The notes below the pieces were generated by a model that saw only the letters and a list, made by a program, of their open reading frames with translations, was not told the DNA's origin and searched no databases. A DNA stretch of 64,000 nucleotides, from the NCBI RefSeq assembly GCF_014805685.1, contig NC_060899.1, positions 8,952,290-9,016,289 of the forward strand. The letters run 5' to 3'. The position numbers and the translations under genes were made by a program. Positions 14,931 through 58,025 of the stretch are shown here, piece after piece (position 1 is the stretch's first letter; the number at the start of each line of letters is the position of its first letter). Source of the DNA: Silurus meridionalis (lineage: Eukaryota > Chordata > Actinopteri > Siluriformes > Siluridae).

Positions 14931-14937
14931 ATAAGAT

Positions 14938-15166
<229 letters not shown>

Positions 15167-15214
15167 TACATATACATACATGTATACATACATACATATA
15201 CACACACAGTTACA

Positions 15215-15572
15215 CTTTATACACTAATCAGCCATATCAATAAAACCACTGACAGGAAACGTGATTATCATTGATCAAAGGGCAGCAGGATTCCCTCATA
15301 GCAGTGGCCACTATCAGCAGGATAATTTTCCCTGACACACTGCAAATATTGTTCAGACATTGTATGAGAAACATGACAAGGAAAAACTGTAAACTTGGCC
15401 TTGAAATTCCCCAGATCTCAATCAAGATGTATTGATCTATCTTTGAAGTCTTGGTGCCAGATACCACAGCAGATCTTCAGAGGTCTTGTGGAGTGCCTTG
15501 GCAGGTTTTTTGATTGCACAATGGGATCTACACACTATTAGGCAGGTGGGTTTAATGTTATGACTGATCGAT
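15215..15572. mobile_element. Internally deleted Tc1-like element
   Basis: The left end reads CACTAATCAGCCATATCAATAA and the right end, reverse-complemented, reads CGATCAGTCATAACATTAAACCC. These are diverged inverted ends of the Tc1-like type common in fish. The interior keeps pieces resembling the transposase 3' region (GTGGCCACTATCAGCAGG, CAGAGGTCTTGTGGAGTGCC) but has no open frame. At about 360 bp it is non-autonomous. Confidence 0.65.
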
Positions 15573-16292: not shown

Positions 16293-21089
<4,797 letters not shown>

Positions 21090-21562: not shown

Positions 21563-24375
21563 GTGCACAAAGGTGGACTGTGTTCTATGTAGGAGATGCG
21601 ACCTGAAAGAGATTGTAGACTGTAAGGTGTTGGCAGGGGACAGTGTAGCTAGACAGCATCGGATGGTGGTCTGTAGGATGGCTTTAGAGGTGAAGAAGAA
21701 GAGGAGGAGAGTGAGGACTGAAAGAAGAAGAAGATGGTGGAAACTGAAGGACTAAGACTGTGGTGTGAGATTCAGGGAAGAGGGCAGACATGGGCTCGGT
21801 GGTGGTGAAGAGGTGCTGGATGATTGGGCAACTACTGCAGAAGTAATAAGGAAAACAGCTAGAAAGGTACTTGGTGTGATATCTTGGAAATAGAAATAGT
21901 GGAATGAGGAAGTGCAGGAAAGTATAAGGAGACAGAGGATGGCAAAACAGAATTAGGATCTGCAGAGAGATGAGAAAAGTAGGCAGGAGTACAAGGAGAT
22001 GTGGCAGCAGGTGAAGATGGATGTGGCGAAAGCCAAGGAAAAGGCATATGAGGAGCTGTATGAGAGGCTGGACACTAAGAAAGAAGAAAAGGATTTGTAC
22101 CGATTGGCCAGGAAGAGGGACCGAGCTGGGAAGGATGTGCTGCAAGTTAAAGCAATAAAGGATGGAGATGGAAATGTGTTGACTAGTGAGGAGTGTGTGT
22201 TGAGAAGATGAAGAAAGTATTTTTCAGCAGCTGATGAACAAAGAAAATGAGAGAGAGAGAAGGTTGAAAAGAGTCTGGAGAGGTGGGGGTACACGCTGGA
22301 GATAAGGGGAATTACAATCAGTAGGAGTAAGACAGAGTACATGTGTGTGAATGAGAGGAAGGGCAGTGGAGTGGTGCTGTTACAGGGAGAAGAGGTGGAG
22401 AAGGTGGAGGAGTTCAGGTACCTGGGGTCAACAGTGCAAAGTAATGGAGAGTGTGATAGAGAAGTGAAGAAAAGAGTGCAGGCAGGGTGGAGTGGGTGGA
22501 GAAGAGTGACAGGAGTGATTTGTGATAGAAGGGAATCTGCAAGAGTGAAAGGGAAAGTTTATAGGACTGTGGTGAGACCTGCGATGTTGTATGGTTTAGA
22601 GACAGTGGCATTGACTAAAAGACAGGAGGTGGAGCTGGAGGTGGCAGAGCTGAAGATGTTAAGGTTTTCATTGGGAGTAACGAGGATGGACAGGATTAGA
22701 AATGAGTTTATTGGCGGGACAGTGCATTTTGGGATGTTTTGGATACAAAGTGAGAGAGGCTCGATTGAGATGGTTTGGACATGTGCAGAGGAGGGACATT
22801 GGGTATATACAGTGGTGTGAAAAAGTGTTTGTCCTCTTCCTGATTTCTTTTTTTTTTTTGCATGTTTGTCACACTTTAATGTTTCAGATCATCAAACTAA
22901 TTTAAATATTAGTAAAAGATAACACAAGTGAACACAACATGCAGTTTTTTAAATGAAGGTTTTTATTATCGAGGGAAAACAAAATCCAAAACTACATGGC
23001 CCTGTGTGAAAAAGTGTTTGCCCCCTAAACCTAATAACTGGTTGGGCCACCCTTAGCAGCAGCAACTGCAATCAAGTGTTTGCGAGGGTTTTCGAGCATG
23101 AACCGCCTTTTTGAGGTCATGCCACAGCATCTCAATAGGATTCAGGTCAGGACTTTGAATAGACCACTCCAAAGTCTTCAGCCATTCAGGGTTGGATTGC
23201 TGGTGTGTTTTGGATCATTGTTCTGCTGCAGAACCCAAGTTTGCTTCAGTTTGAGGTCACAAACAGATGGCATTCTCCTTCAGGATTTTTTGGTAAGCCC
23301 CAGACCATCACACTACCATCACCATATTTACGGCAGACGTAATGGGACACACACCTTCCAAAAAGTTAAACTTTTGTCTCGTCAGTCCAAAGAGTATTTT
23401 CCCAAAAATCTTGGGGATTATCAGGATGTTTTCTGTCAAAACTGAGACAAGCCTTTATGTTCTTTTTGCTCAGTTACGGTTTTCATCTTGGAAATCTGCC
23501 ATGCAGACCATTTTTGCCCAGTCTCTTTCCTATAGTGGAATCATGAACATTGACCCTAACTGATGCAAGTGAGGTGTTCAGTTCTTTGGATGTTGTTGTG
23601 GGGTATTTTGTGACCTTTTGGATGAGTTGTTGCTGTGCTCTTTGGGTAGTTTTGGTCGGCCGGCCACTCCTGGGAAGGTTCTCCACTGTTCCATGTTTTT
23701 GCCATTTGGGAATAATGGCTCTCACTGTGGTTCGCTGGAGTCCCAAAGCTTTAGAAATGGCTTTATAACCTTTTCCATACTAATAGATCTATCTTTATCA
23801 TTTGTTTCAAAATTTCTTTAGATCTCAGCATGACGTCTAACATTTGAGAATCTTTTGGTCTACTTCACTTTGTCAGGCAGGTCCTATTTAAGAGATTTCT
23901 TGATTGTGAACAGGTGTGGCAGTAATCAGGCAGTAATCAAATGAACTCAGGTGTGATAAACCACAGTTTTAACAGGGGGCAAACACTTTTTCACAAAGGG
24001 CCATGTAGTTTTGTATTTTGTTTTCCCTCAATAATAAAAACCTGCATTTAAAAACTGCATGTTGTGTTCACTTGTAATCTTTTAGTAATATTTAAATTAG
24101 TTTGATGATCTGAAACATTAAAGTGTGACAAACATGCAAAAAATAAGAAATCATGAAGGGGCAAAAAAATGTTCACACCACTGTAGGTAGAATAATGCTT
24201 TGGATAGAGCTGCTAGGAAGGAGGAAAAGAGGAAGACCAAGGAGAAGGTTTATGGATGTGGTGAGGAAAGATATGCAGGTAGTTGGTTTGAAAGAGGCAG
24301 ATGTAGAGGACAGAGTAGTATGGCGACGGATTCGCTGTGGCAACCTCTAATGGGAGCAGCCGAAAGAAGAAGTAG
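21563..24375 (+). mobile_element. RTE-type LINE, 5'-truncated, split by a Tc1 element
   Basis: Fragments in plus-strand order encode LCRRCDLKEI and ARQHRMVVCRMALEV (end of the endonuclease region), KDLYRLARKRDRAGKDVLQV (linker) and EEFRYLGSTVQSNGECDREV. Further on come PAMLYGLETVALTKRQEVEL and, after the Tc1 element, GRRKRGRPRRRFMDVVRKDM. It ends AATGGGAGCAGCCGAAAGAAGAAG, the usual 3' end and A/AG-rich tail of this fish RTE family. The central reverse-transcriptase core is deleted and frameshifts and stops abound, so it is dead. The 153-codon minus-strand frame is a shadow. Confidence 0.85.
22810..24183 (-). mobile_element. Tc1-like DNA transposon nested in the LINE
   Basis: Bounded by CAGTGGTGTGAAAAAGTGTTT on the left and its diverged inverse ending TTCACACCACTG on the right, with TA on both sides. 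Roughly 200 bases at each end form a long inverted repeat, including a second AAAAAGTGTTTGCCCCC motif on the inner side. On the minus strand, 23746-23483 encodes the transposase DNA-binding half (RAIIPKWQKHGTVENLPRSG, GRPTKTT). Remnants near the left end encode QSPDLNPIEMLWHDLKK, the motif preceding the catalytic glutamate. Stops and frameshifts make it inactive. Confidence 0.88.
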
Positions 24376-32272: not shown

Positions 32273-32980
32273 TTGTTTAGCCAAGGTGGGGTTTGAAATC
32301 TTCCCAGCATTGAGCTATTGGCATACTTCTTTCACTTCTTCTGTGTACAGGAAAGATGCCTGATGTGGAAAAGTCACCGTGGAGAAGTAGTTGGAGGCAA
32401 AGTCGTTGTAAAAACTAATATATTACTACGCAATAAATTCATTAAACTGAAGATATGGAGCTTTGAAAATATTTAGCCTATTTAAGCTTTTACATTATAC
32501 AGATTCCTTTTTATAATAAAATAATTATTCGAACTATTCTTTTATAATAAAATAACTTATACAAGCATGCACTACTCAATGTAATAACACTTGAACTTAA
32601 CTTTTATTCTTACATGATAATTAACACATTCACAAACATATACTTAACTTTAGCGCGTTCATACGCCTTAACTCATCATTAGTTTATATAATTCTTGTAT
32701 TATTGCATAATTACTGTTACTATAAATTGTTCATGCTTTGTTGCATTCAATTATTTCACGTGCCCATTTCCAATGCATGCTCGATCAGTTAATATGAAAG
32801 GACATCTGAATGAAAATGTCTAATATTACTGCTAATAAGGGAAGAAATTTGCTTGTGTCGTGCAAAAAAAAACAACCGGATTGTTCACGTCGTGCAAAGA
32901 ACACCGTGCTAATTGATGACTGCTTTGGCGCGTTTGGTCTGGGTTTTGCTTTAACCTTGATGGCAATGTAGAGCTCGGTG
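28100..32980. other. Intergenic DNA between nudt16 and the mir-499 locus
   Basis: No exon could be supported. It contains a GGAT tetramer array (29363-29436), a GT repeat (29771-29831), AAT repeats near 30575 and ATT repeats (32229-32270). The 88- and 100-codon frames overlap repeats or lack family motifs. Confidence 0.55.
29363..29436. repeat. (GGAT)n tetranucleotide array
   Basis: About 18 copies of GGAT without interruption until a final GGATGAAT. Confidence 0.93.
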
Positions 32981-32999
32981 CAGAAATGTTGAGCACCGG

Positions 33000-33240
33000 C
33001 GAACATCAGTGGGCTTTTTATAAATAGTCGGCGGTACAGTAGAGTAGAGAGAGCCGAGCGCGGATAAAAATGCTGCTGGCCTTTTGTGCACGCGCGCAGC
33101 CAATGAGCGCGGGGCTGGCGGGTCCGAGCGCGCGCGCGTTTTCTCCCCTTTCTGCCCAAGTCTGACCTTGAGGGAGACAATAAAAGAGGGTCAGAGCGCG
33201 CGCCTGGGGCAAGCCGACCACCGAGAGCCTTCCACAGGTC
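33000..33240 (+). promoter_or_regulatory. CpG-rich promoter-like block of the mir-499 host locus
   Basis: A sharp GC- and CpG-rich island (33050-33235) stands in AT-rich surroundings. TTATAAATAG at 33018-33027 fits both the MEF2 consensus YTA(W)4TAR and a TATA box, which would place a start near 33050. A reverse ATTGG-type CCAAT motif (CCAATGAG) lies near 33100 and a second TATA-like AATAAAAGAG near 33179. CTTCCACAG followed by GTCAGT at about 33237 could be the donor of a noncoding first exon. All reads in the direction of mir-499. That it still drives mir-499 is inference. Confidence 0.5.
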
Positions 33241-33407
33241 AGTACCCACGTGCACTCCTGTGTGCAATATGTTCTAATGTCCTTTGACTTCTTTTTTTTT
33301 ATTCTCAAATGACAGGAGCTTCCATTTAAGGCTGTTTCAGTAAGAGGCGACGTACTTTTCTGCAGTGTTTTTAGATGCTCATTGACCTGGATGTGTGTGT
33401 GCTGTAG

Positions 33408-33529
33408 AAGTCTTGCGGCCCGGAAAGGTTTCTTGTGTCCTGCCTCCGTGGAGCTCAGAGAGTTTGACGAGGCCGCGATGGGTTTGCGCACAACCAACCT
33501 GGGGCTGTGCATGCGCAGAGCGCTGGAAG
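33408..33529 (+). pseudogene. Myosin relic: possible first coding exon
   Basis: An acceptor-like GTGTGCTGTAG precedes it and GAAG/GTACTG follows. The frame from 33448 reads VELREFDEAAMGLR, resembling the EFGEAAPxLR start of myosin heavy chains, with the start codon position now GTG. This is the least certain of the relic exons; a short match to a conserved N-terminus could be chance, but position and strand fit. Confidence 0.5.
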
Positions 33530-34602
33530 GTACTGTCTCCTCCACCCGCGTGTTAATCAGGAAACACTTGTTTAACGTTAAAATGAACAAACCTAGTACT
33601 TAGTGATGCATGACTTGCAGAAGTGCGGCGTGTACTTTAACTGCATGCTTGTGTAAAAGACAGATAAAAATAGATTGTTTCCTGTAATCATATATAAAAT
33701 TGGCACAAGAACACTTTTTCTTTTCTGATACCATGTGTCAACTGAAATCAATAGATAAAAAAAACTACCAAACTTTATAACCAAATCTGTTCCAAAAAGA
33801 AATACAGGGCCAAAAGAAGCATAGGCTAAAATATGACACACAGGACTGCAGCTTTTATACAATTCTTTTCAACACCTTCACACAAGTAAACATGTCACAA
33901 GAATATTAAAATACAAAAGATTTATGAATTATACATTGAAAAATAATCTACAATGTAAGAAATCTACAGAATGGATACTGCTTTTACCACTTGATCTGCT
34001 TTAACCCACTTGATTTTCTCTGATATTTTTATTACATTTGTAACATCACAACAGAAAGATTCCCCTCTAACATCCAAACCACCGTTTTTGCTTGTACTGA
34101 CCTATTCTTTACCTGAACTTTAAAAAAACACACATTAATACAAAAAAGACCTAATGTAAAGCCAAGAATAAAGGAAATCTTTCTTTATATTATTTATGAG
34201 GAAGATAAAGATAGCAGTCGATTCAGTTCTTTCAGATCCTTGGTGAGTCCTTGGTTTGGAGATTTAAACAAAGTAGATGGAAGGAATGATAGAACGTTTG
34301 TTTGGCTAAATAATATATTTAAAGTAGTGAACATCAGGTAAATATATATTAAAAAAGGTAAAATATACAATTATATAACTAATATAACCATTATGGTGAG
34401 TAATGTGGGAAATGTGGAAGTTAGATTCACACTGGCTTACAAAAGAAATGAAATAATGACAGCTCTTTAAGCCTCATAAAATGGTGGCGAACGGACACAT
34501 TAGAACAAGTGTTTATTCTTCATGCTGTGGTTTAATTTTTTTATCCTTCTAATCAAAATCTTTGATTTCAGGTCTTTGCTGTCCTCGTCTTTGTGCTTCC
34601 AG

Positions 34603-34759
34603 TCTGTGGATCTCCAGACGGCTGTTCTATGTAACAGAGAACCCTAACAAATGGCGACGTCGACTCTGCTGATGTCATCTCTGATTATAAAAGAGAGCTC
34701 AGACACATGATCTGAAATCTACTCCATTGCTGACAATGCACACAATGACACGCAAAAAC
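34603..34759 (+). pseudogene. Myosin relic: head exon with NPxKW block
   Basis: A pyrimidine-rich tract ending TTGTGCTTCCAG leads in and GTAAGC follows. The 157-base interval equals the 52 codons plus one base I count for the intact exon. Three frames together carry the exon: RRLFYVTENPNKW (family LFCVTVNPYKW), then SADVISDYKRE (PEVVAAYRGK), then EIYSIADNAHND (HIYSIADNAYND). At least two frameshifts and several stops separate them. Confidence 0.85.
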
Positions 34760-35108
34760 GTAAGCCAATATGCACTTTGTGTAAATCAGTATGTTCGTGG
34801 TAAATAACATGCCTCATGACAGTAGGTCTCTCCTTTTCATGTCACCTTTTTATATTTCTACACAAAGCAAGTTCATACATTCTACAAACTTTTACTAAAT
34901 ATTTTTATATAGATATATAGAATTAAAAAGTAAATCTAAACATCCTTCTTCGCCAGTTCTTCATTGTACTTAGCTAGACATGAGCTCTTTGCAGTTGGAG
35001 GAACTCCTTCTGTTACTGTCTGTTAAAATCTTATAAGCAGTTCACCAACCCGTTCTGTTTTATGCATGATGTTTATTGTTCTTAGCCTATTTCTCTTTCT
35101 CTTTACAG

Positions 35109-35262
35109 TTTCGAGCAGTTGTGCATCAGTTTCACAGCTGCCAAACTTCGGCAGCTTTTTTTAACCAGCACGTGTTCGTTTTGGAGCTGGGGAATATAAC
35201 ATATGGCATTCAATGGACTTTTATTGACTTTGGCTTAGATCTACATTGACCTCATTGAGTAG
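35109..35262 (+). pseudogene. Myosin relic: relay-helix exon
   Basis: The acceptor CTCTTTCTCTTTACAG and donor GTGAGT are intact. Frame 1 reads FEQLCISFTAAKLRQL. One inserted base shifts to FFNQHVFVLELGNITYGIQW, then TFIDFGLDL, and after a small deletion a third frame gives IDLIE followed by TAG in place of the usual lysine. The family sequence at this place is FEQLCINFTNEKLQQFF, HHMFVLEQEEY, EWTFIDFGMDL, IDLIEK. The match is too long for chance. Confidence 0.92.
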
Positions 35263-35347
35263 GTGAGTTCCTGCTTTATAAGTAAGATTAAGTCATAATA
35301 ACTGCTAATTTTTTTTATCCTCAGGAATGTACTTTATTGTGCTGATG

Positions 35348-35560
35348 CCATCTTCTGGGAATAATGTCTGTAACATAGGAGGGTGTGCATGTTCCCTAAG
35401 CCCTCACACATGGAAACACTAATTTCTTCAAACACCCAAGCAAATTGTACACTAAGACAGTTCATCATGCTGATAATGAGATCTCAAAATGAGACTGTTT
35501 TGGATACCTTCCAAACATCGTCTTTCAAGTCAATGACAAGTCTGAGTAGTCGTTTTATTA
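35348..35560 (+). pseudogene. Myosin relic: head exon after the relay exon
   Basis: Reads GIMSVT, stop, E, then after a one-base shift CMFPKPSHM (family GIMSILEEECMFPKATDM). Further on it reads QNETVLDTFQTSSFKSMTSL (family [20 protein letters not shown]). The middle of the exon is diverged. It follows the relay relic directly, as in intact myosin genes. Confidence 0.88.
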
Positions 35561-35923
35561 ATTTCATAATAACTTGAATGTACAGCTGAATCTTTATTTA
35601 CTATTTTTATTCTAAAGAAGGAAAAAACATTGACAAAATTTCTATTCAAGTTTAATAGTATATTTATTCTGTATTAGGAGTGAAGCTTAGGGAAAAAAAG
35701 AAAAGGGTTTCCTCCAGAAAAAAGCAATTAATTACAGCACTCAATTTGAGTTTGAATGCAGAAATTGAAAAACCTGCTTAATTAAGGTATTAAAATCCGA
35801 TGCAAAAGAACAAAGCAACATTCGAGTGAAGCTGCATGTAGAATATGTGTATTAGATAAATATGTAGAGATTTAAATTCAATAAGGAACATTTTTACGGA
35901 CCTATAACGCCTGCATTGATGTT

Positions 35924-36003
35924 GGAGCGTGAGGCAGTTAAGACTTGCAGTGATGTTTAGGTAACTTCACCCATGAACATCACTTTAAGTCTGTGCTGGC
36001 TCC
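35924..36003 (+). ncRNA. mir499: microRNA precursor mir-499
   Basis: The 5p arm at 35938-35958 matches vertebrate miR-499-5p over its whole length, including the seed TAAGACTT and the end GATGTTT. The 3p arm at 35976-35997 (AACATCACTTTAAGTCTGTG...) matches miR-499-3p. The arms pair through GCAGTGATGTT/AACATCACTTT and AAGACTT/AAGTCTG, with an outer GGAGC/GCTCC closure and a loop around GTAACTTCACCCATG. In vertebrates miR-499 is a heart- and slow-muscle myomiR normally cut from an intron of MYH7B/MYH14; targets include fast-fibre programme repressors such as Sox6. Here it lies among relic exons of that host, so it must be transcribed without an intact myosin mRNA. Expression itself cannot be judged from sequence. 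Confidence 0.96.
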
Positions 36004-36488
36004 ACTCTTACCAGCAACACAACGTTCAGTGAGGTAAGAAATCATAGACCATCAATTTGGTTCAGCAAAACTATGACAAATGGATTTTTTTTTACATGGT
36101 CAGTAGTGTTGTACAGTCACCACCTTGCTTACTGACTAATGATGAATTTGTCACTTATTTTCAGACAAGAATCTAACCTGAGAAGAACCTAATCTTTACT
36201 TCTGTAACATCACATTGCCACTTTATTTAGAGTCTGCTCTTAAGTATGATGGAGGTGTCTTTGATCCTTTACCACACGATGATGTTCTGGAAATTTTGTT
36301 TTGGCGGATGGGATTTTTTTTTAACCCAAATCCTGTGTTCCAAACAATGGTGAGTTTTAAGATTTTCGTTCATTTAATATAAAGGATATGTTGAGTTAAT
36401 AAACAAACAAGAAATGTTTTAATGCTTCTTCCTATACTTTAATCAGTTTTGTTTTGACCAAAACTTCGGAATCTTGATCACTTCTAAC

Positions 36489-36575
36489 TATCCAAAGGAT
36501 AAATGGACAACAAGGCTGGTGAGAAACTGGATACTGCAGTACATGTTAGCCAAAACAAAGATTCATCCCTTTTTG
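36489..36575 (+). pseudogene. Myosin relic: neck (IQ) exon
   Basis: Reads KDKWTTRLVRNW followed by AKTKIHPFL. The intact family reads QWNIRAFMGVKNW and FKIKPLL, so W-x-x-R, V-K/R-N-W and K-I-x-P-x-L line up with small indels. It lies about 500 bases 3' of mir-499, the expected order. Short and diverged, so moderate confidence on its own. Confidence 0.6.
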
Positions 36576-37508
36576 TTTTTTGTTTTTTGTTTCTCTCTAT
36601 TCTTGATTTCTTTCATGCTGGTCTTCTTGGTCATCTGCAAGTCTTCCACTTGTTTTACATATTTAAATCAGCAACAGTTTAAATTAAGTCAGGAAAGGAA
36701 ATAGTGAATGGCTTAGCACAATTATTATGGTTAAGTGTTCTAGAGTTAAATCCTAAGCTAAATGCTAGAGAGAATGTTTTTTTTTTATGGCTGAAAGTTT
36801 GTAAAGAATGCATGAGGTATGTCTGTCGTGTGGTGTGGCGTGTGTCCATTGTGTCCACAAACCCGTCCATGATTGTGTGTGGCCTCTTTAATAAGCCTGT
36901 TAAACCCCTTCTACCCCGAATAGCATTGACAAAAGCAGGTGTGGTGGTGGGTCATGTGGTTGCTCAAAGCAACCACATGCCAGTTGTTCAGTATTCTTTC
37001 CCCAGTATGGCCCCTTCCCCCCATTATAAATAACCTCCATCTATCCCACTCCTCTTTCCCTTACTGCTTTGTTAGGAATAGTTGCTGTCAAGAGCATACG
37101 CATCGCTGAGATGCCAGCCCAGGTGATTGAGGATTAAGTCCTCTTGTTTCAGCAGTAAGTTGGGTTGCAGATAATGAACGACCTCTGTCCAACCTCTGAC
37201 TGAGTGTCCCTGATTGTAATGCCATGCCAGCAATGCGGAATTGATTTACTTTTCAGGCATGTCCAGTGTCACCATGGGCTTACTGATATAGAACACAAGA
37301 CACAATGGCGTGTGCTGGTTTGACCCTATTTGGTGCTGAGCTAATTTAGAACAATGGCGGAGGCAAGTCTATGTTCCACCATTAAATTGGAAACTGTTGC
37401 TCTCCAACTTGCACCCGAATGAAAAGAAAAAGATACTTACCATACTGTACTTTTATATTGCTGTTGTCATAAGACTTGTAAAATGTCCATTATCATTTTT
37501 CCCCCCAG

Positions 37509-37735
37509 AAGAAAGAGCTGGCCTGAGTAAGTGGTTTGTTAAGCAGAAAAGACCATCCATTACATCACATATAAAAAGACTCTTGATTAAGAGTGCCAAT
37601 CAGGCAGCACTGGAGGAACCGCTTCGGTTGCAGGGGTCAAAGTATGCAGATGATGTAGAAGACCTATCTGAAATGGTGCTCCACCTCAGCAATGCTTACA
37701 AACAGACAAGTGAATCACAATTCATAAACCAAAAG
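37509..37735 (+). pseudogene. Myosin relic: rod (coiled-coil) fragment in a 156-codon open frame
   Basis: Residues encoded at 37610-37720 read EEPLRLQGSKYADDVEDLSE and then MVLHLSNAYKQTSESQ. The myosin rod has NEALRLKKKMEGDLNEM and EIQLSHANRQAAEAQ: DL-x-EM, LS-x-A, Q-x-x-E-x-Q and LRL agree. A strong acceptor-like TTTTTCCCCCCAG ends at 37508. The enclosing frame (37397-37867) is unusually long for this AT-rich DNA, but the parts outside the rod match resemble nothing I know. Confidence 0.6.
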
Positions 37736-38013
37736 TCAACATTTCTACACCATAAACAACGAAGTATCGATTCAATAAATAAGTTAAACAAATGGAAGCT
37801 AAGTGGCATTAACAAACTATGGGAATGGATCTTGAAGAGTCTGGACATTGGAATGAAGATCTCATGAAACAAATGGCAGCAACAGATCATCAAAACATCT
37901 TTCTGAAAAAACTTCCAACAGTAATTCCCAGAAAGTGAAAATTTTGCATGCACAGATAAACAAAGATAACACAATTACCACATAGGGAAGTAATTCTGAT
38001 GATTGAATGTGTG

Positions 38014-38093
38014 CTGAACCTGAAAAAGAAGCTCGAAAGTGATATCTCAAATGTGGCTTTGATGCAATGGTGATGCAAAGCTCAGGAGAGCAT
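38014..38093 (+). pseudogene. Myosin relic: C-terminal rod fragment
   Basis: Reads LNLKKKLESDISNV, against LINQKKKLEADLSQ in the intact rod, and 6 bases later in another frame DAMVMQSSGEHLQ, reminiscent of DAAMMAEELKKEQ. Order and strand agree with the other relics. Weak alone. Confidence 0.5.
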
Positions 38094-38109
38094 CTACAGA
38101 TTGGAAGGT

Positions 38110-39180
38110 TAGTGTGCATTGTATCATCTTGAACCATTCTTTCTTGCTTGCATTGCAGTTCCCAACTTCTAGGAAAGCACATGCAGTGTTCAAATTGGTG
38201 CACATCAGCACACAAGTACAAGTAACTTTAACAGTATTCAAGGTGCAAGGATGGAACAATATTAACAAAAGAATTTCTGCTTCAGAAACATCCACTATAG
38301 TGCAAAGGAGAACAGACATGGATGATTCTCGAACCAACCGACTGTGCTTATGCTAAAGACAAACACATTATCAATCCACTAATGTTCTTATATTTAGAGC
38401 AGGTGAGTCTTCTCATTAAACTATTCTAATGAAGCATACACCTCTTTCTAATTTTTATGGAGTTTGAGGATTCTTTGTAATGTAGACAGAAAAAAATTAA
38501 TCATTGCTTTTGCATAGTAAATATTTCATGCAGTATTAAGATGTTTTTTAGAACATGTTGCCAGAAATGATTAAAAATCGTGAAACATAAATAAAGAGAA
38601 TTACTAGCTTGATGTTGTAAGTGCTGTTCTTTCTGAAATGATTTTAAACTAAAGGTAACAAGATTGTACATTTTGATGATGTTCTTTTCATTGCAATAGG
38701 ATACCTCTTAGCTATTAAACAGCATAACATTTCCACCAAGAGTGTTACATAATCGTGAGGCTCATCTGTTGCTTCGAACACCCTCATACCTCACACTGTC
38801 AAAACACTATCCAGACAAGCATCCAGCCCTCATGCACAACACATTATCTTGTTTTGATTCATGAATCATTTGTTACATTGAAAAAAAGCACATAATTGGT
38901 TACTCTGCGAATGTGGCAGTTTCATACACCATATCTGACATCTGGATGTTACCCAATTACTGACAAACAGCATTGAAGCGTCGGTATTTTAGCTACTTGA
39001 ACGATCAACGAGGATAATAATAGGTTTACGGCAACCTGTGTCTTGTTTTCATATGTTTGTCACATCTCACAACTTCATGAAATGAAATATATCAGTGGAC
39101 AGAATCTGAGAATACAACTATGCAATAAAACATACAGATACCTTAACAATATTACTATCTGGCTGCATTTCTTGTCACAA
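38110..39180. other. Downstream of the myosin relic, nothing recognised
   Basis: No exon or mobile element could be supported between the last rod relic and the LINE copy at 39185. Further eroded myosin sequence may be present below the level readable by eye. Confidence 0.45.
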
Positions 39181-39184
39181 TGTA

Positions 39185-41065
39185 AAAGTACTCTGTTCTT
39201 CTTCTTTTGGCTACTCCCATTAGGGGTCGCCACAGCGGATCATCAGTCTCCATACCCCCTGTCCTCTACATCTGCCTCTTTCACACCAACTACCTGCATG
39301 TCTTCCCTCACCACATCCATAAACCTTCTCCTTGGCCTTCCTCTTTTCCTCCTTCCTGGTGGCTCCATCCTCAGCATTCTTCTACCAATATAACTCCTGT
39401 TAACTCAATCTCGCCTCCCTCACCATGTCACCAAAATGTCCTACATGCGATGTCCCTCTAATAAACTCATTTCTAATCTTGTCCATCCTCGTCACTCCCA
39501 ACGAAAACCCTAACATCTTCAGCTCTGCTACCTCCAGCTCCACCTCCTGTCTTTTACTTAATGCCACTGTCTCTAATCCATACAACTTCACAGGTCTCAC
39601 CACAGTCCGATAAACTTTCCCTTTTATTCTTGCATATGCCCTTCTCCACCCTGCCAGCACTCTTTTCTTTACTTCCCTAACACACTCTCCATTACTTTGC
39701 ACTGTTGACCCCACGTACCTGAATTTGACCACCTTCTCTACCTCTTCACCCTGCAACCGCACCACTCCACTGCCCTCCCTCTCATTCACACACGTACTCC
39801 GTCTTACTCCTAGCTGACTTTCATTCCCCTACTCTCCAGCACATACCTCCACCTCTCCAGGCTCTTCTCAACCTGCTCACTACTCTCACCACAAATCACA
39901 ATATCATCCGCAAACATCATAGTCCAGGGAGACTCCTGTCTGACCTCGTCCGTCAACCAGTCCATCAACACTGCAAAAAGGAAAGGGCTCAGAGCCGATC
40001 CTTGATGCAGTCCAACCTTCACCTTGAACCAGTCTGTTGTTCTTACTGTACACTTCACTGGTGTCACACTTTCCTCATACATGTCCTGCACCACCCTCAC
40101 ATACTTCTCTGACACACTGGACTTCCTCATACAATACCACAACTCCTCTCTTGGCACCCTGTCGTACGCTTTCTCTAAATCCACAAATACACAATGCAAT
40201 TCCTTCTGACCTTCTCTATACTTCTCCATCAACATTCTTAAAGCAAATAATGCATCTGTGGTGCTCCTCCTCGGCATGAAACCATACTGTTGCTCACAGA
40301 TGGTCACCTCTTCTCTCAGCCTGGCCCATAACTTCATGGTGTGACTGATCAACTTAATTCCCCTGTAGTTACTGCAGGTCTGCACATCTCCCTTGTTCTT
40401 AAAGATCGGTACCACCACACTCCTTCTCCATTCCTCAGGCATGACCTCTTCCCTAAACCTCATACTACAGTCTTCCTCCTTCAGTTTCCACCATCATCAT
40501 CTTCTTTCAGTCTTCACTCTCCTCCTCTTTCTTCACCTCCAAAACCATCCTACAGAACACCACTCACTCCCAGAATGTTTCCTACTCCTCCATCTTACAA
40601 CCCACTTGTGAAGAATTAGCACTGATGACAGTTATCACCCTATCAGAAACTCTCTTCACCTCCACTACACTTTTACTAAACTCTTCCTTCCGAATCACCC
40701 ATACACCATTTCTTTTTCATCCACAGCATGATGGAACAGTGTAAACCCACCTCCAATGTTCCTGGCTTTACTCCCTTTCCACTTAGTCTCCTAAACACTC
40801 AACATATCTACTTTTCTCCTCTCCATCATATCAGCTAACTCTCTCCCTTAACCAGTCAAAGTACCAACATTTAAAGTACCAACCCGAACCTCCACTCTCC
40901 TACACTTCTCCTTGTCCTGCCGTCTCTGTAGTCATCTTTCTCCTCTCCTTCGGCCAACAGTAGCCCTATTTCCACCGGTACCCTGTTGGCTAACGATATC
41001 TGTGGCGGTCGTTGGTAACCCGGGCCTCGAACGATCTGGTATGAAATTCTTAATCGTGGTAAAAG
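39185..41065 (-). mobile_element. RTE-type LINE, internally deleted, reverse transcriptase readable
   Basis: The 5' end lies near 41065 (TTACCAACGACCGCCACAGA on the minus strand) and the 3' end at 39185 with an AAGAAGAAG tail. The minus-strand frame 40463-39810 encodes 217 residues of reverse transcriptase: NYRGIKLISHTMKLW, QQYGFMPRRSTTDALFALR, CVFVDLEKAYDRVPREELWY, GLHQGSALSPFLFAVLMD and FADDIVICGES (the catalytic F/YADD). A second frame (39789-39400) gives the C-terminal part with YVGSTVQSNGECVREV and LYGLETVALSKRQEVELEV. Endonuclease sequence is mostly lost by deletion. Inactive, but the least decayed copy in the window. Confidence 0.88.
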
Positions 41066-42860: not shown

Positions 42861-45800
42861 TCACATCTCCAGAATGTCTCTGTCTAGTTCCCTGTAGGCC
42901 TCATCGATGTAGGTGGCTATGGCACAAAGGGAGCTCCTATCTGAACTCAGCAACACTGTCACCGTTTCCTTCCAGTAGGTGAAAGGAATACAGGAACTCT
43001 GTACAAGGAGAGACAAAGCAATGTATAAGATGCATATACAGTATTTGGATGAGCTGCTTTAAAAATATCCTTTGAAAAATGTCAATTTTGTCTGGGGTTA
43101 GTAAAAAGGGGAAGGAAAAAAGAAAAAAAGAAAAAAGAACGATTGCCATTGTGAGCTTATTACAATAAGACTCAGATAGAACTTTATCACCTTTATCTCC
43201 TATATATACCCATGTTAACTGGTATGGCTATGACATCGTCTCAGCTCCTGCCGAAATAATGGCATGACCCCAAATATTGTTCAAAAAAATTGTGTCAAGT
43301 GTCAAGTAGGTGAAGTAAAGTTGATGATGAGAATCTAACTCTGCCTGCTCAGGGTATTGAGGTCAATGGGCACCAACATGTTTCTCAAATAAAAAAAAAA
43401 AATAATAAATTGAGTCAGATTGAGGATATATTAGTGTCCAAGATAGTGATTGCTTACATTCTCCAGACAGGTGCTGTCCTTGTCTTTGTTGAGGTAGTGA
43501 TGTTGCCAGAAACGCAGCAGGTGGTGGAAGTTGTTAAGCAAGCAGCCCGGGTATTTCTCAGCATACTCTTTCTCCTTAAGAGCTCGTAGGTAGAATGGCA
43601 GCTTGCCCCGCCACCGTGCCAGCATCAGCACTACCAAACTTGTATTGAGGCAGCTCACGTTCTCCTGGCAATAGACAGCAAGCGCACATGTTCAAGGTTT
43701 CTATTTGTCAATGCTCCCATAAGTGCAGACATACACAGGAACTGAAACACCATTTCTTTTCTCTCTCATTAAGTGTTTTTTAATATATATGTTTGTATGT
43801 TAATAATGCCTGGATTATTGTGGTGTACAAAGAGGTTACAAATTAACAGGGGAAAAAAACCTTCAAGTGTGCACAATGGCATTTAAAAACAAAGTAAAGT
43901 CTTGCCTGGGTTAGAGTCTGCACATTAATGATGTTGATAAGCCTGAAGAGGAAGGACAGTCTGTTCTCCACTTGAGCCATATAAGACAACAGGCGGCACT
44001 CTGACAGCACCTCAATCACTGAGATAGGAAAACAGTTTGTAATCCTGCATCAAACTTTACATGTATAGCAATTAATCAGAGCCGTTTGTTTGGTCATCAG
44101 CACCTTTTATGTCTTCCGTCTGCCCTTCAAAGCGGTCCAGGGACAGAACGATGCAGCGTACCAGCATGTTGGAGTCCACAAGTGAGCTGTTGATCTGGTT
44201 CAGAAACGTCTCAAACTATAAGAATACAAAGGGGCACATAATAATCATGCTGAGAACATTCATCCAATCAAGCGTTAGAGGGATTTTTTTTTTCTTGTTT
44301 AAATAAATAAATAGCAATTTCCCCCTAATTATGAAACTGTGCATCAATTATATTTTGAAGAAAACTTGCTTGCTTGGTAGGAAAATCCAATATTCTGACA
44401 TTATCACGAACTAAAACAAATGTCAGAAAAAATGTCTACAATGAACCACATCAAAAATGGTTAATTATATCAATAAATTAATGCTATATATTTGAAATAT
44501 TAGACCTACAGTGACTTTAGACTTTGTTCACATTAAAATGTTATGCACCCTTATCCTTAAATCCATAAGAATACAAAAAAATCTTTTTTTTGCATATTAC
44601 TACCACTCAGGAGGCAAGACACACCTTTTCTTCTGTGTTCACATATTTGTTAAATCTCTTGAAGGCATCAATGTTGAATTTCATGAGTTCACCAAGCAGA
44701 TCAAAATAGCTCTGAAGGACGTCACGGGATTTACAGCCACTGTCAATGATGCAGAAGAGGATGTGCTGCAGGGCCCCACGGAAGAGGTTTAAATTTAGAC
44801 TCCACCATATTTCATGACATACATGGATATGAGTAAGCAATGTATGAAGGACAACATATATGGAACGTAAAGATCACTCACCTCTAACAACCCTCTCTTC
44901 AGCAGGAACATCTGGTCTGCATAAGATGTGGCACCACGTAAGAAACTCTCTACTGCTCTAGCCTGCCAGAACCTATAGAGTAGATCAACAGTGACAACGT
45001 AACTGTAGTGCACACTAAATTGATCTGTAGGATCACTTTATGGTGAAATAAGATCTGTGAAGACTCAACAAGAGTGCTCACCTAAATGATGAATCGACTG
45101 GTTCTTTCTTCATGACTGAAATTAGCCGTGTCAGAAGGCCCTTCTTTCCGTCACACGCAAGATTCCTGTATTAAGAAAGTTTACACAGCATGAGAAGTAA
45201 AGTAAAGTAATAGTGTGATGGAAACAAAAAGCTAGGAAGGTTTTTTCCCCTCAGTACCTGTCTGTGTTGACCAACGCCTCCACTTCAGGAATATTCGCTT
45301 TTAAAGAGATGGCACTGAGCTCATTCAACTCTTGCCCATTCAGGAGAAGATACTTGTTCCTGATTCCAAATACAAGGTTTAAAATGCATTACATGTTTAA
45401 AAAACCCCACAAAAACACAATGAAGCAAGGAAATGATGCACACTCTCAGATGCACTTACTCATGGTGGTCACTGAAGCTCTGTAGCAACCTGAGAAACTG
45501 GATCTTAAAGGAGATCTCCTGTAGACAAAAGAAAACATTTTGTGAACCTGGTGTACGTCTAAACTATTAACACCTCAACACCGAGCCGTTTTCATACATC
45601 TTGAATAACAAGAAATGAATCTCAACACGGTTTTGCAAATGTTATACTGTTTCTCTTCTGAGTTTGTACATGTTCATCATTTAAATCTTCCATGCAATGC
45701 GACATCTACTTATGTTTTACAAATATTTATAATGTATAGATTTTTGCTCTGTTTACAGCCTAAATACAGCCTTTAATATAATGCCATATTAAATATCTTG

Positions 45801-51008: not shown

Positions 51009-51440
51009 TGTTTATCCTTTGACGTCGCAAAGTTTTTTTCTTTTTCTTCAATAAAGTATTTGCTGAAGGACACAAACAGGCAGATTACTGACCTCTACCG
51101 ACTCGGAGCTGTAATATCACTCCCTGGGTCTCTACAGTAGTAATGGGAAGATCGGAACATTTTAGTGATCTGTTTTTTTAATCTTGTTCAGCAAAATGAA
51201 CGAATCTTTTTTGAGTTATTTAGTTTATTTCGTTCCTTTGATCAGAAATTAAATAAAAGGTTACATTTTCAAAAAGCTGATCCCTTAACACATCTACAAA
51301 CACCAACTTACTTGAGCTTCAAAATCTATATATGTATATATGTACAGTATATGTATAATTTATAAATTCATACTGTATATAAAGATGTGGAAAAGCCAAC
51401 CATTATGGTTGCATAAGACAGAGCACAATTTGCACAAGAG
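51009..51440. other. trpc4ap upstream region
   Basis: Directly upstream of the trpc4ap start codon. It is moderately AT-rich, without a clear TATA box. Some CpG-containing sequence lies inside and just after the first exon (50760-51030), fitting a broad housekeeping-type promoter. The LINE cluster begins at about 51440. Confidence 0.4.
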
Positions 51441-53392
51441 TGCACTCTTCGTGCCGGTCCCAAGCCCAGATTAATGGGGAGGGTTGCCAAATCATATATG
51501 CGGATCACAAACAAGAATTTCATAAAGGATCGTGCGAGGCCCGGGTTACCAACGGCACAGGTATTGTTAGCGAGCAGGGTACCGGTGGAAATTGGGCTAC
51601 TGTTGGCCAAAGGAGGAGAAGGAGTGGAGGAAGATGTCTTCAGAGACAGCAAGGAAAGGAGAAGTGAGGAGAGTGGAGGTTAAGTTTGGCACTTTAAATG
51701 TGGGTTCTTTGTCTGGTAAAGGGAGAGAGTTAGCTGATATGATGGAGCGGAAAATGGTAGATATTTTGTTTGTTCAGAGACCAAGTGGAAAGGAAGTAAG
51801 GTCAGGAACATTGGAGGTGGGTTTAAACTGTTCTATCATGGTGTGGATGGAAAGAGAAATAGTGTAGGGGTGATTCTGAAGAAAAAGTACATTAAGAGTG
51901 TAGTGGAGGTGAAAAGAGTTTCTGAAAGAATGATAAACGTGACACTGGAAATTGAAGCTTAAGTGGGTTATGAGATTGAGGAGAAGGAAAAAATCTGGAG
52001 TGAGTAAATAAAGTGGTGGAGAGTATATCTATAAATGAATTATTGGTGATTGGGGCAGATTTCAATGAGCATGTAGGTGAAGGTAACATAGTTGATAAGG
52101 AGGTGATGGGTAGGTATGGCCTTAAGGAGAGGAATGTGGAAGGGCAGATGGTGGTAGATTTAGTTAAAAGGATGGAAATGGCAGTGGTAAACACTTATTT
52201 TAAGAAGGAGGAGCATAAAATGACGTATAAGATCGGAGGAAGTTGCACACAGGTGGACAATATTCTATGCAGGAGATGCAACCTAAAAGAGATTGGAGAC
52301 TGTAAGGTGTTGGCAGGGGACAGTGTAGCTAGACAGCATCGGATGGTGGTCTGTAGGATGGCTTTGAAGGTGAGGAAAGAGTGAGGACTGTAAAAAATTT
52401 TAATGGTGGAAACTGAAGGAGGAAGACTGTAGTGTGAGATTCAGAAAAGAGGTCAGACAGGGGCTGAAGAGGTGCTGGATGATTGGGCAACTACTGCAGA
52501 AGTGATAAGGGAGACAGCTAGGAAGGTACTTGGTGTGACATCTGGAAATAGAAAGGAAGACAAAGAGACGTGGTGGTGGAATGAGGAAGTGCAGGAAAGT
52601 ATAAGGAGAAAGAGGTTGGGCGAAACAGAATTGGGCGAAACAGAATTGGGCATATGAGGAGCTGTCTGAGAAGTTGGACACTCAGAAAGGAGAAAAGGAT
52701 TTGTACCGATTGGCCAGGCAGAGGGACCGAGCTGGGAAGGATGTGCTGCAAGTTAGAGCAATAAAAGATGCAGATGGAAATGTGTTGACTAGTGAGGAGA
52801 GTGTGTTGAGAAAATGGAGAGAGTTTTTTGATCAGCTGATGAATGAGGAAAATGAGAGAGAGAGAGATGGTTGGATGGTGTGAACATGATGAAGTAGGAA
52901 GTGGATAGGATTAGTAAGGAGGAAGTGAGAGCAGCTATTAAGAGGATGAGAAGGAGAAAGTCGGTTGAACCAGATGACATAGCGGCAGAAGCATGGAGAG
53001 GTTTAGGTGAGATGGCAGTGGAGTTTTTAACCAGATTGTTGAAATGATTTTGGAAGGTGAGAGGATGCCTGAGAAATGAAGAAGGAATGTGCTGGTACCG
53101 GTTTTTAAGAACAAGGGAGATGTGCAGACCTGGAGTAACTACAGGGGAATAAAGTTGTTCAGCCACACCATAAAGTTATTGGAAAGAGTAGTGGAAGCCA
53201 GGCTGAGAGATGAGAAGTATAGAGAAGTTTAGATGGAGTTGCATTGTGTGTTTGTGGATTTAGAGAAAGCGTACGGCAGGGTGCCGAAAGAGGAGTTGTG
53301 GTATTGTATGAGGAAGTCTGGTGTGGCGAAAGGAGCTAGATTAAAATGGTTTGGACATATGCAGTGGAGAGACATGGACAGTACTGTTGTGT
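51440..53392 (+). mobile_element. RTE-type LINE with internal deletions
   Basis: The 5' leader (GTGCGAGGCCCGGGTTACCA) matches the reverse complement of the end near 41040. Endonuclease pieces include TLNVGSLSGKGRELADMMER, ELLVIGADFNEHVGEGN and ARQHRMVVCRMALKV; linker KDLYRLARQRDRAGKDVLQV; reverse-transcriptase piece CVFVDLEKAYGRVPKEELWY. There a deletion joins MRKSGV directly to RLKWFGHMQWRD. Many stops and shifts. Confidence 0.87.
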
Positions 53393-53394
53393 TT

Positions 53395-53870
53395 CCTGTA
53401 GATGGCACTTAAAACACGGAAAGTTCTGTCAAATGCTTCCCTGATCCTCACACCAAACGTTCAATTTGACGAAAACTTATTAAGTTTCCTGTAGATGGCA
53501 GTATAAACTCAGTAATCATTTGATTTTTAAACTTACCTGCCTTGATCCTACCCCCTTAAGAGAGTCCCTAAATGGGACTGAAACACCTACACAAGCTATA
53601 ATGTATGTGTAAAATACTACATTCAAATAAAATACTTTCATTCTATCAACATAGATTTTGTATTTAGGAGGTATTATTTAGGCGGGCTGATTTTAAACCA
53701 CTTGCCTGAACTCTACCCCCTATTTCTTTTGGTCCTAATACATGAAGAGATAATAAATTGGTCTGATACACCTACATAATAATGTATTTGGAAAATACTA
53801 CATTTTATTCTATCGATATCATTAAATTAGGTTGTTTTATACACACAGTTCACAGTACATAGAAACATTG
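53395..53870. repeat. Diverged tandem duplication between two LINE copies
   Basis: TTTCCTGTAGATGGCA occurs at about 53390 and 53487. A longer module occurs twice about 190 bases apart: AAAC-x-ACTTGCCTG, ACCCCCT, ACACCTACA and AAAATACTACATT. The sequence is unlike the flanking LINE and may be a remnant of another element inserted or captured there. Confidence 0.5.
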
Positions 53871-53871
53871 T

Positions 53872-55372
53872 AAATGTTGGATGATTGGGCAACTACTGCA
53901 GAAATGATAAGGGAGACAGCTAGGAAGATACTTGGTGTGACATCTGGAAATAGAAAGGAAGACAAAGAGACATGGTGGTGGAATGAGGAAGTGCAGGAAA
54001 GCATAAGGAACTATCAGAAGATTTTTCTTAGGTAAAGGAGCAGATCTGGAGGGATCATGGATGTAGAGTGTTTAATGAAGGTACTGTCATCACCTCGCTC
54101 TCATGCGTTCACTCAGGTTTTTTGACGGTGGTGTGGTGGGTCGTCTCTTATCCTAGAGATCCCTCATGTCTGTGTTACCTTCTGGTTCTCCCTTTTAGTT
54201 ACGCTTCCATAGCGAGTTTTTCCTTGCCACAGTCACCACCGGCTTGCTCATCAGGGACAAAGGTACACCTATAAAAAAACATTTTATTCAATTTTATTAT
54301 CACATTATCTGTGTGAAGCTGTTTTGAGACAATTTTCATTGTTAAAAGCGCTATACAAATAAAAATGAATTAAATTGATTAAGGAAAAAGAGGTTGGTGA
54401 AACATAATAGGGTTAAGCAGAGTGATGAGAAAAGTAGGCAGGAGTACAAGGATATGCGGCCGCAGGTAGAGGGACTTGGCAAAAGCTAAGGAAAAGGCAT
54501 ATGAGGAGCTGTCTGAGAAGTTGGACATTTAGGAAGGAGAAAAGGATTTGTACCGATTGGCCAGGCAGCGCGACCGAGCTGGGAAGGATGTGCTGCAAGT
54601 TAGAGCAATAAAGGATGGAGATGGAAATGTGTTGACTAGTGAGGAGAGTGTGTTGAGAAGATGGAGGGAGTATTTTGATCAGCTGATAAATGAGGAAATG
54701 AGAGAGAGAGAAGGTTGGATGATGTGGAGTTGGTGAAGCAGGAGGTGGATAGGATTAGTAAGGAGGAAGCAAGAGCTATTAAGGGGATGAGAAGTGGAAA
54801 GTCGGTAGGACCAGATGACATACCGGTAAAAGCATGGAGATGTTTAGGAGACATGGCAGTTGAGTTTTTGACCAGATTGTTTAACAAGATTTTGGAAGGT
54901 GAGAGGATGCCTGAGGAATGGAGAAGGAGTGTGCTGTACCAATTTTTAAGAATAAGGGAGATGTGCAAAACTGCAGTAACTACAGAGGAATTAAGTTGAT
55001 CAGTCACACCATGAAGTTATGGGAAAGAGTAGTGGAAGCCAGGCTGAGGGAAGAGGTCTGAGGATCTATGAGCAACAGCGCATGTAGGATGTTTTGGGGA
55101 CAAAGTGAGAGAGGCCAGATTAAGATGGTTTCAACATGTGCAGAGGAGGGACATGGGGTATATCGGTAGGAGAATGCTGAGGATAGAGTCACCAGGAAGG
55201 AGGAAAGGAGGAAGGGTAAAAAGAAGGTTAATGGATGTGGTAAAGGAAGACATGCAGGTAGTTGGTGTGAAAGAGGCAGATGTAGAGGACAGGGGGGTAT
55301 GGATACGGATGATCCACTGTGGCGACCCCTAATGGGAGCAGCCCAAAGAAGAAGAAGAAAAAGAAGAAGAAA
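53872..55372 (+). mobile_element. Second RTE-type LINE copy, carrying a nested insertion
   Basis: It repeats the module also seen at 52470-52610 (GATTGGGCAACTACTGCAGA). After the insertion it continues with YRLARQRDRAGKDVLQVRAI, MRSGKSVGPDDIPVKAWRCL and GERMPEEWRRSVL. A deletion then leads to REARLRWFQHVQRRDMGYIG and the end AATGGGAGCAGCCCAAAG plus an AAGAAG tail. It is a separate copy from the one ending at 53392, because the mid-region is present in both. Confidence 0.82.
54010..54379 (+). repeat. Fish interspersed repeat, copy 4, nested in the LINE
   Basis: About 370 bases, flanked by TAAGGA at 54004-54009 and 54380-54385. The uninterrupted LINE copy at 52600 has a single TAAGGA at this place. 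Contents: TTTTTCTTAGGTAAAGGAGC, GTTTTTCCTTGCCACAGTCA, GGCTTGCTCATCAGGGACAA, GTTAAAAGCGCTATACAAAT. Confidence 0.75.
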
Positions 55373-55379
55373 TATCGTA

Positions 55380-58025
55380 AACGTAATCAGTCAACAGACA
55401 AAACTCTTTAACTGTCACTTTTTTATAAGTTTTTATTTGTGTGTTGTCTTAGTTTGCAAATCACATTAAATATGATTTTGTAAATGTAATAATTTGTTGA
55501 ATAATAATTGAATTATTAATGGCTAGAAAGTTGACTAATCGATTTTCTAATAGTCTAGAAGGTTTAATATAGCTATAATGCAGCGCTATATACAAATGTA
55601 ACACTAATACAAACTTTTCTTTTACAATGTTTTTTTTGTTCTTACTGTCCTTGCTGTACAATTTAATTTTAAAAGGTTCTGCTGCCATCTCAAATGAGTG
55701 CTTTGTTCCTAGAGCCTTTGGGAGAAAGTTCTGCAGAACTAAAACAATGCCATGATGTAACAAGATATTTGAAGTTGTTTAACACAAAAATTTGCTTCTG
55801 ATGTGCAAAATTCATCGCTACATTAAAATGTGTTGTTCCACTATCACAATGTTAATTATTTTAATTTGTTAAGGGCTTTTATGCAACAAATGGGATGCAA
55901 CATTCCAAGGTGGTCCTGTGATTCACTGCCTTACCCAAAACAACAAGATGGCACATCCTGTGGTGTCTTAGCTTTGAAAGTAAATAATTTCAAATAGATA
56001 ATTTATGTAATTGCCCTGAAATGTCAGTGTCCTAAAATATAATCTCAGGAAACACAATTGAGTTGCTAATTATGGTGTTTTATTTTACTTTAGAACAAAA
56101 TTACTTCTTTTATTATTTTCTTTTTTTAGTTTTTTTTAGCCAGTTGTTTTCCTCAACGCACCAAAATGAGTGAAAGAATGGAGAAGATCAATAGCTGTCA
56201 CTCTTCTCCAAAACAGCGGTATATTTAATGTACAGTATCAGTCATAACATTACTGTTTTTAATGTTTAGAAAAGAAGACTCTTATGCTCATCAAACCTGC
56301 ATTTATTTTTTTTATCAAAAATGCAAAAAAATCTATATTGTAAATTATTATTAGAATCTGGAATAATGTTTTTCTGTTTTTAATATATTGTAAAATAAAA
56401 TAAAACTTCTATGATGCAAGGTGAATTTTCGTCAGCTGTTACTCCAATCTTCAGTGTCAGACAATCCTTCAGAATTCATTCTAATATTTTGATTTATTTT
56501 TTTCAAATTTGGAAACAGTTGTGTGTGTGTGGTGCTATTAACCTGTTTGGACTTTTTAATTAATCAACCACTCTGGTTGTTGTTGGTTATATTTCTCATC
56601 TACTATTGTATTCACTTTACTCAGCGTTCTCATGAGTATGTTCCCTGACAAACTGTTTTCAACACTGATGAATAAATCAGCATATTTGAATGATTGTTGA
56701 AGGATCATGTAATACTGAAGACTCTAGTAATGGCTGATGAATATTCACCTTTGCATTGCAGAAATAAGTTAATATTTACATATATTAAAACAGAAAACTA
56801 TTTTATTTGTTAATATTTACCAATATATATTTTTATTTTGTATTTTTTATCAAATAGCATTAAAATGTAAGCAAGAGAAAAGAAGATGCTCACATTGATG
56901 TGTACTGCCAAACATGCGGCTTGTTTGAAAAGCCTGTAGTTGGAGATTAGTCATTGTTTCAGGGATGACTATAACAGTTTCCTGTCCATTTATTCTTATT
57001 TTTATCCCCTCAACACACCACACTGTACATTGTACACTGTACATTCAAAGTCCAATTTGACATAAACCCCTGTTGTCATAACAGTTGTCATAATTACTCA
57101 ATCATATGACATATTGGGTAATTAGTTAGCTGCATGATTGTTCAGGTGTACATGTGTTCTTATTAACACAGACAGTGAGTTCAGAGAAAAGAGTCAAAAT
57201 GCTTGTCTAATTCTTGCTTGAACTGATTTGACAGTATTTTGCTGTGCCAGGTTGTTCAGTTGTGAAATTGTTTGGGGGCACAGCTTGCTTGGTCTGTATG
57301 TAATTAGTGACCGGGAGACTCATGAATACAGAGTACTTCAGGTTTCTTTAATCAAAGCAGCATCTTTGTCTTGTTTTCCTTTTAAAAGCTGCCGGTCCAT
57401 AAACTAAATCTGGCTCCATTGTTCACCAAAAATAGTTATTGAAGCCATAATCACATACACCTACCAATTGTTGAACACTTTGCATGTAAACACTTAGTGA
57501 CTGTATCCTGTCTGTCTCTATGCATCTCCCCTACTCCACCCTTCAGTTGACAGGGAATTCCACATCAGACCTAATATTTTTGGGGGGTGATGGACCTTTT
57601 CCATTTACAATAGTGGTATGGTACTGATATGGAAGTGTGAGTGTTGCTTGTTAAAGTATATCAGCCAAATAGCTCCCACCATTGGGTCTTCAGTCATTTG
57701 AAGTAAAATTGCAATTATTTTAGATTTTCAGATTGAGATTTGGTGCAGATTAGAACAAACAGTTATTCCTGTAATTTTCCCTATGAAGGTGTTTTCCCGT
57801 TCCCTGCTTAATTTGAGCATAACGAAAGCCGCCCCTTAGCTATGGGTGTAATGCGCAGCACAGGAAATCTGGTGGGCTGAAACGACGTGTGGATACTCTC
57901 GTGCGTCTTCATTTAGGTGGGTGGGCCTGCTTAAAGACTGGCCTATTTTTGTAGACGTGAGCAAATGCATGTAGGGAATTAAAGGGAGTGTTGTTTCTGC
58001 TACATAGGAAATGGCCATCAGGCAA
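55380..58025. other. Intergenic DNA between trpc4ap and emp3
   Basis: AT-rich sequence without a supported exon, RNA gene or recognisable mobile element. Open frames are short and without family motifs. Confidence 0.5.

Follow-up and report, generated by a model that had tools for sequence, protein, structure and literature searches.

Remains of a Myh7b-type myosin gene around a conserved mir-499 hairpin in the catfish Silurus meridionalis

The window analysed here is a stretch of 64,000 nucleotides of the southern catfish, Silurus meridionalis (C16:8952290-9016289, in an assembly of 742,560,071 bases, or 742.6 Mb, and 285 contigs), and it contains the precursor of the microRNA mir-499 among decayed exons of a sarcomeric myosin heavy chain gene. 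The precursor (RF00745) occupies positions 35925-36004 of the plus strand, where cmscan aligned it to model positions 1-80 with 90.4 bits (E-value 1.4e-17, threshold 60). The match to the covariance model is full length and above the gathering threshold, which places the hairpin in the family, and it was the sole match above threshold over the entire 64-kb window. An earlier sequence-only reading had put a complete mir-499 hairpin at 35924-36003; the hairpin is confirmed, and its coordinates were one base off. The precursor folds with a minimum free energy of -36.1 kcal/mol (z -6.27), a stability equalled by none of 200 shuffles, and the hairpin with its flanks (141 bases) reaches -54.1 (z -4.71). 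Its 5p and 3p arms presumably lie at about 35938-35958 and 35976-35997. Among the candidates scored in the whole assembly (60 of 147489), this locus is the only match above the family cut-off; the second-ranked match, below it at 42.9 bits, is the same locus on the opposite strand. Outside this genus, ipu-miR-499 has been measured in the gonads of yellow catfishes (PMC11171309).

Myosin remnants were detected on both sides of the hairpin by three approaches. Teleost Myh7b queries were obtained by way of a bichir record, itself reached from a human MYH7B sequence. The tblastn comparison of sea bass Myh7b with the window (matches printed for 3 of 12 queries) gave pieces that were all on the plus strand and collinear: amino acids (aa) 145-169 at 34690 (E 0.75), aa 466-513, from the relay exon, at 35101-35243 (E 4.5e-9), aa 740-774 at 36512 (E 0.57) and, in the rod, aa 1655-1735 at 37825-38049 (E 0.003). 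A hidden Markov model (HMM) built from 29 teleost Myh7b placed its eight best rows, of 24.3 to 5.7 bits, on the plus strand and in collinear order between 34687 and 38055; these are overlapping tiles that represent about five distinct places. The next-ranked match in the window had 2.1 bits, and the best one in the reversed window, which served as control, had 2.4.

A frameshift-tolerant chain of ten Myh7b sequences against positions 33000-39200 (jump cost 22, scores in half-bits) reached 477.8, against 158.2 on the minus strand, 124.3 on the reversed sequence and a maximum of 178.7 in 200 dinucleotide shuffles (mean 145.5, standard deviation 13.4). The same chain, run on 6.2-kb tiles along the window (20 tile-strand combinations), gave 360.7 for the overlapping plus-strand tile at 31001 and at most 213.1 for the remaining 19. 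Taken separately, the real scores of the sub-regions 34600-35900, upstream of the hairpin, and 37300-39200 were reached by 0 of 100 shuffles, and that of 36005-37300, just downstream, by 2 of 100. The decayed myosin exons described in the sequence-only reading are borne out by these values, and the tblastn check that it had proposed with fish Myh7b returned the relay exon instead of refuting them. Some results speak against a myosin origin of individual pieces: the 5′ sub-regions 33000-33700 (11 of 100 shuffles) and 33700-34600 (32 of 100) are not significant by themselves, one rod open reading frame (ORF) piece matched no Pfam family, and another rod piece gave chance matches only among solved structures. 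In addition, weak chain segments (for example aa 707-711 and 986-1389) barely exceed the jump cost and may be due to chance. Clear remnants stop near 38058, and weak segments extend as far as 38344.

The remnants, all on the plus strand, follow the order of the protein. The likely first coding exon (aa 5-24) is at 33448-33507, with 38 half-bits, in the 5′ sub-region that is not significant alone. A remnant of aa 121-170 with two frameshifts and one stop lies at 34622-34764 (83 half-bits), and it is followed by the frameshifted relay exon (aa 467-523) at 35101-35262, of which the part 35101-35243 scores 148 half-bits. The remnants of aa 525-541 at 35355-35406 (42 half-bits) and of aa 600-624 at 35488-35562 (51 half-bits) come next, the latter being the closest clear host piece upstream of mir-499. 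Downstream of the hairpin, aa 719-775 are represented at 36453-36640 by chain segments of 28.5, 29.3 and 45.0. Rod remnants are located at 37549-37720 (residues 1522-1547 and 1622-1641, with 35 and 43 half-bits) and at 37825-38058 (residues 1656-1682 and 1724-1739, with 61 and 46 half-bits). The chain thus brackets mir-499 between host residues up to 624, which are clear, and from 719 on, which are moderate. The intact myosins of the same genome have an intron between QR and YRILNP, inside this residue interval, and human miR-499 sits in intron 19 of MYH7B (PMC6402096).

In the relay exon, the peptides FFNQHVFVLEL and TFIDFGLDL are present as the sequence-only reading had listed them. Its two frameshifts are found in the tolerant alignment, which places two between these peptides and one before them, but not by tblastn, which reads a single frame with a one-residue gap. 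By eye, IDLIE and a stop follow in a different frame, and this terminal stop abuts a donor-like GTGAGT at the place where the intact exon of the paralogues has its donor. Because the relay remnant ends at an exon border of intact genes, the copy is not a processed one. It has the form of a genomic copy, with exon pieces split by non-coding DNA, beside a gene whose exons at 43431-45034 on the minus strand match PF12463 (DUF3689) with 37.3 and 51.8 bits in two of the four ORFs tried. We take PF12463 to be TRPC4AP, and the neighbour was named trpc4ap by this family.

Comparisons among myosin classes pointed to Myh7b for the locus as a whole. Chain scores were 478-511 for teleost Myh7b, 460 for bichir Myh7b, 393-422 for Myh6 and 383-415 for Myh7/slow; with 18 exon pieces, Hoplias Myh7b scored 418, Pygocentrus Myh7 357 and the fast gene of the catfish itself, on C1, 311. 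Over the whole stretch, with like queries compared with like, each Myh7b query outscored all those for Myh6, Myh7/slow and fast myosin. On the other side, the differences between myosin types carry no shuffle control, and the 18 pieces do not single out Myh7b when 36005-39200 is taken alone (Myh7 174, Myh7b 169); with full-length profiles the same region gives Myh7b 203, Myh7/slow 174 and Myh6 166. The homology is significant, and over the stretch as a whole Myh7b is the nearest class; one comparison, for a sub-region, points in the opposite sense. Sarcomeric myosins resemble each other, and this one comparison slightly favours Myh7; both would fit remnants of another sarcomeric myosin, or of a processed copy, unconnected with miR-499. 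Such an origin is nevertheless extremely improbable, given the scores of all Myh7b queries over the whole stretch, the exon border at the relay remnant and the pieces that flank the hairpin in host order. The remnants overall are taken to be Myh7b, and the locus very probably corresponds by orthology to the myh7b/miR-499 locus that adjoins trpc4ap in fish. The host identity, order and orientation of the sequence-only reading agree with this, including the minus-strand PF12463 neighbour.

When the genome was searched with sea bass Myh7b, 24 of 1940 candidates were scored, and the 121 matches obtained corresponded to one intronless gene on C23 and to multi-exon genes on C4, C19, C20 and C1. The cluster on C19 was read only in part. 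When 19 exon pieces were classed, in a comparison that contained no fast class, six of the seven genes outside C19 had Myh6 or Myh7/slow as their best match at all the pieces found. In the C1 gene Myh7b came first at 2 of 19 pieces, and 3 of the 11 C19 pieces each contain a single exon with Myh7b as best match; the three true Myh7b used as controls chose Myh7b at 19 of 19. In the tree of 18 exon pieces all ten entries of the catfish fell outside the Myh7b clade (clade support 1.00): the C23 gene with Myh6, four C4 genes and the C20 gene with Myh7/slow, and the C1 gene and three C19 composites with a fast record. The C1 gene was considered as a fast-evolving second Myh7b and rejected, since its place in the fast-skeletal clade has support 1.00; within that clade, support is 0.53 for the node that sets it outside the other fast entries. 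The C23 gene is the best match to sea bass Myh7b in the whole genome, and a Myh7b retrocopy there would have let the host die while the microRNA stayed; it was discarded too, as it is a Myh6 by the tree and by 96% identity to that of Ameiurus melas. This gene (C23:16869239-16874989) is intronless, full length and open over 1932 aa, and may be an old retrogene serving as atrial myosin.

Among the 120 proteins listed of 7988 for a Myh7b query, the sole catfish entry seen was a 2555-aa myosin model of Silurus meridionalis, which is 76% identical to bichir Myh7b and 83% to the Myh6 of its own genome, and thus not a Myh7b. Full-length Myh7b of Electrophorus, Hoplias and Metynnis, which are close relatives, are among the proteins listed.

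The myosin loci examined included no intact Myh7b, at the number of candidates scored and with C19 partly read, which answers the call of the sequence-only reading for a search for a second copy. An undetected or unassembled second Myh7b could still supply the protein, as cod and stickleback retained a paralogue (PMC3716903) and a small share of the candidates was scored. We consider this improbable, because any Myh7b should head the ranking for a Myh7b query, whereas the seven genes outside C19, like those pieces of C19 that were examined, class elsewhere. With a dead reading frame and no intact Myh7b found elsewhere, the myh7b remains look like a unitary pseudogene.

The decay of the host contrasts with the conservation of the microRNA. 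In the ten best host segments, 66 of 334 bases were changed at positions fixed by residues invariant in ten Myh7b, which gives a K of about 0.23, an underestimate since the segments were chosen for likeness. The tolerant alignment of the same segments contains seven frameshifts and one stop, and other parts of the host are missing. In the mir-499 arms, 1 of 43 bases differs from the Rfam consensus (by eye), and the binomial probability of at most one change in 43 arm bases is about 9e-4. The hairpin is better conserved than the host, and it is very likely, as judged from these sequences, that mir-499 was kept by selection while the protein frame of its host is dead. Of two claims made in the sequence-only reading, that of a dead protein gene holds up, since the frame is broken by frameshifts and stops and long parts of it are missing or can no longer be recognised; that of a shift of selection to the RNA is supported by the decay contrast and, more loosely, by the CpG island described below. 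An assembly error that broke an otherwise intact myh7b has in its favour that the locus is known from one assembly. This is scarcely credible: the lesions extend across 5 kb, 20% of bases are changed in the best pieces, the neighbour exons match their own Pfam family, and no other copy was found among the candidates scored.

Substitution rates in teleosts are 2-5e-9 per year, so that the K of the host segments would mean a loss dating back tens of millions of years. Crown Siluroidei have been placed at 97 Ma (PMC5132296), and the host loss may be common to other catfish, as a prediction from these ages.

A CpG island is present at the expected 5′ end of the host, at 32801-33600, directly before the likely first-exon remnant. 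Among 636 tiles of 400 bases over the window, eight, in three places, had GC of at least 0.5 and a CpG observed/expected ratio (o/e) of at least 0.6, and only four, with starts 32801-33101, had GC of at least 0.5 and o/e of at least 0.8. The tiles starting at 32801-33201 have GC of 0.50-0.54 and o/e of 0.72-1.18, against a window mean of 0.37. The island contains TTATAAATAG and CCAAT, and a TATA-box/MEF2-like element at 33018-33027 on the plus strand is a consensus match only, without a chance estimate. CpGs disappear fast where they are methylated, and those kept here beside decayed exons suggest an active, unmethylated promoter. We also considered whether an exon 1-exon 2 splicing pattern had been kept in this region, and dropped the idea, as the putative donor is off the ancestral border.

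Since the island is the only strong one in the window and stands at the expected 5′ end of the host, we infer that the old host promoter probably still drives a non-coding primary microRNA transcript (pri-miRNA). This promoter step is weakened by several observations: the evidence for the island is sequence only, no CpG island was found at the 5′ ends of the four intact Myh genes tested, and the island test is also passed away from 5′ ends, by 2 of 596 tiles in the C4 stretch and by 3 of 196 in the C1 stretch (5 of 792). With the same dead host, a promoter in the local intron, or a new one, could instead drive miR-499, the island being unrelated; conserved intron sequence immediately downstream of miR-499 has been suggested as a possible promoter (PMC3716903), and the island-free paralogues fit this as well. 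We regard such a source as unlikely, although less so than the other alternatives, because the only strong island of the window lies at the host's 5′ end and adjoins the likely first-exon remnant.

Under retention of the host promoter, transcription would start at the CpG island and run on through the non-coding myosin remains, and Drosha would cut the hairpin from this non-coding transcript, for which the dead frame would not be needed. Cropping of miR-499 is independent of splicing (PMC3716903), and the mature microRNA would have the role in slow and cardiac muscle that it has in other fish. The contrast in decay supports a move of selection from protein to RNA, and the best explanation would be a protein gene turned into a dedicated pri-miRNA gene.

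Host-less miR-499 has been published for medaka, stickleback, Atlantic cod and platyfish (PMC3716903), and for medaka and stickleback also in PMC4177693. The fish MYH14/miR-499 paper that the sequence-only reading remembered is thus a real one (PMC3716903); its view of the catfish as an example with the host corpse visible holds for the remnants, but the novelty was overrated, with four such teleosts published. As in those fishes, miR-499 of the catfish was kept in the trpc4ap-linked region after the loss of MYH14/myh7b there. Medaka, whose genome has no MYH14, expresses miR-499 in its heart and in larval slow muscle, and the 5′ flanks are conserved; there MYH14 was described as wholly absent save miR-499 and an adjacent intron (PMC3716903), whereas host exons are recognisable on both sides in the catfish. 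The phenomenon is already known from other fish, and a dead host and promoter-like stretch that are still visible give this locus its unusual legibility.

The catfish also differs from these four fishes in belonging to the branch where zebrafish retains three host/miRNA pairs (PMC3716903), and for this reason its host loss is probably independent of theirs. No report of host-less miR-499 in catfish was found among the open-licence papers listed. In mammals, heart and skeletal muscle splice MYH7B non-productively and still make miR-499 (PMC6402096); transcription that gives miR-499 without protein, as proposed for the catfish, would be alike in both, but the mammalian gene is intact and the catfish gene is dead. 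Human MYH16 is likewise a sarcomeric myosin pseudogene, although no microRNA is mentioned for it in the relevant passages of PMC6402096.

A broader and tentative proposal, which we hold to be rather less than evenly probable, is that the Myh7b protein was lost long ago in catfishes as a lineage, and that the dead gene has been retained over tens of millions of years as a dedicated miR-499 transcription unit, its original promoter staying open as a CpG island; this would have happened independently of the medaka, cod and stickleback cases. The locus suggests that a microRNA can convert its protein-coding host to a non-coding transcription unit, a change that would be seen here with the host sequence legible. 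If Myh7b was lost once more at a distance from the known cases, this would support miR-499, not the myosin, as the constantly selected part of the locus, and the catfish would be a natural Myh7b-null vertebrate that retains miR-499.

Other features were observed in the rest of the window. Pieces resembling the reverse transcriptase of long interspersed nuclear elements (LINE) were seen by eye in the ORF list at 39400-40490, between the dead host and the trpc4ap exons, near 21950-22820 and at 51380-55390. On the minus strand, 16527-16814 is an exon of a Nudt16-like gene (PF22327, 59 bits), and 6617-6916 is an FCH-domain exon (PF00611, 45.6 bits), srGAP-like by eye. A long AT-type simple repeat at 14900-15270 gives rise to spurious YIYIYI frames in the ORF list.

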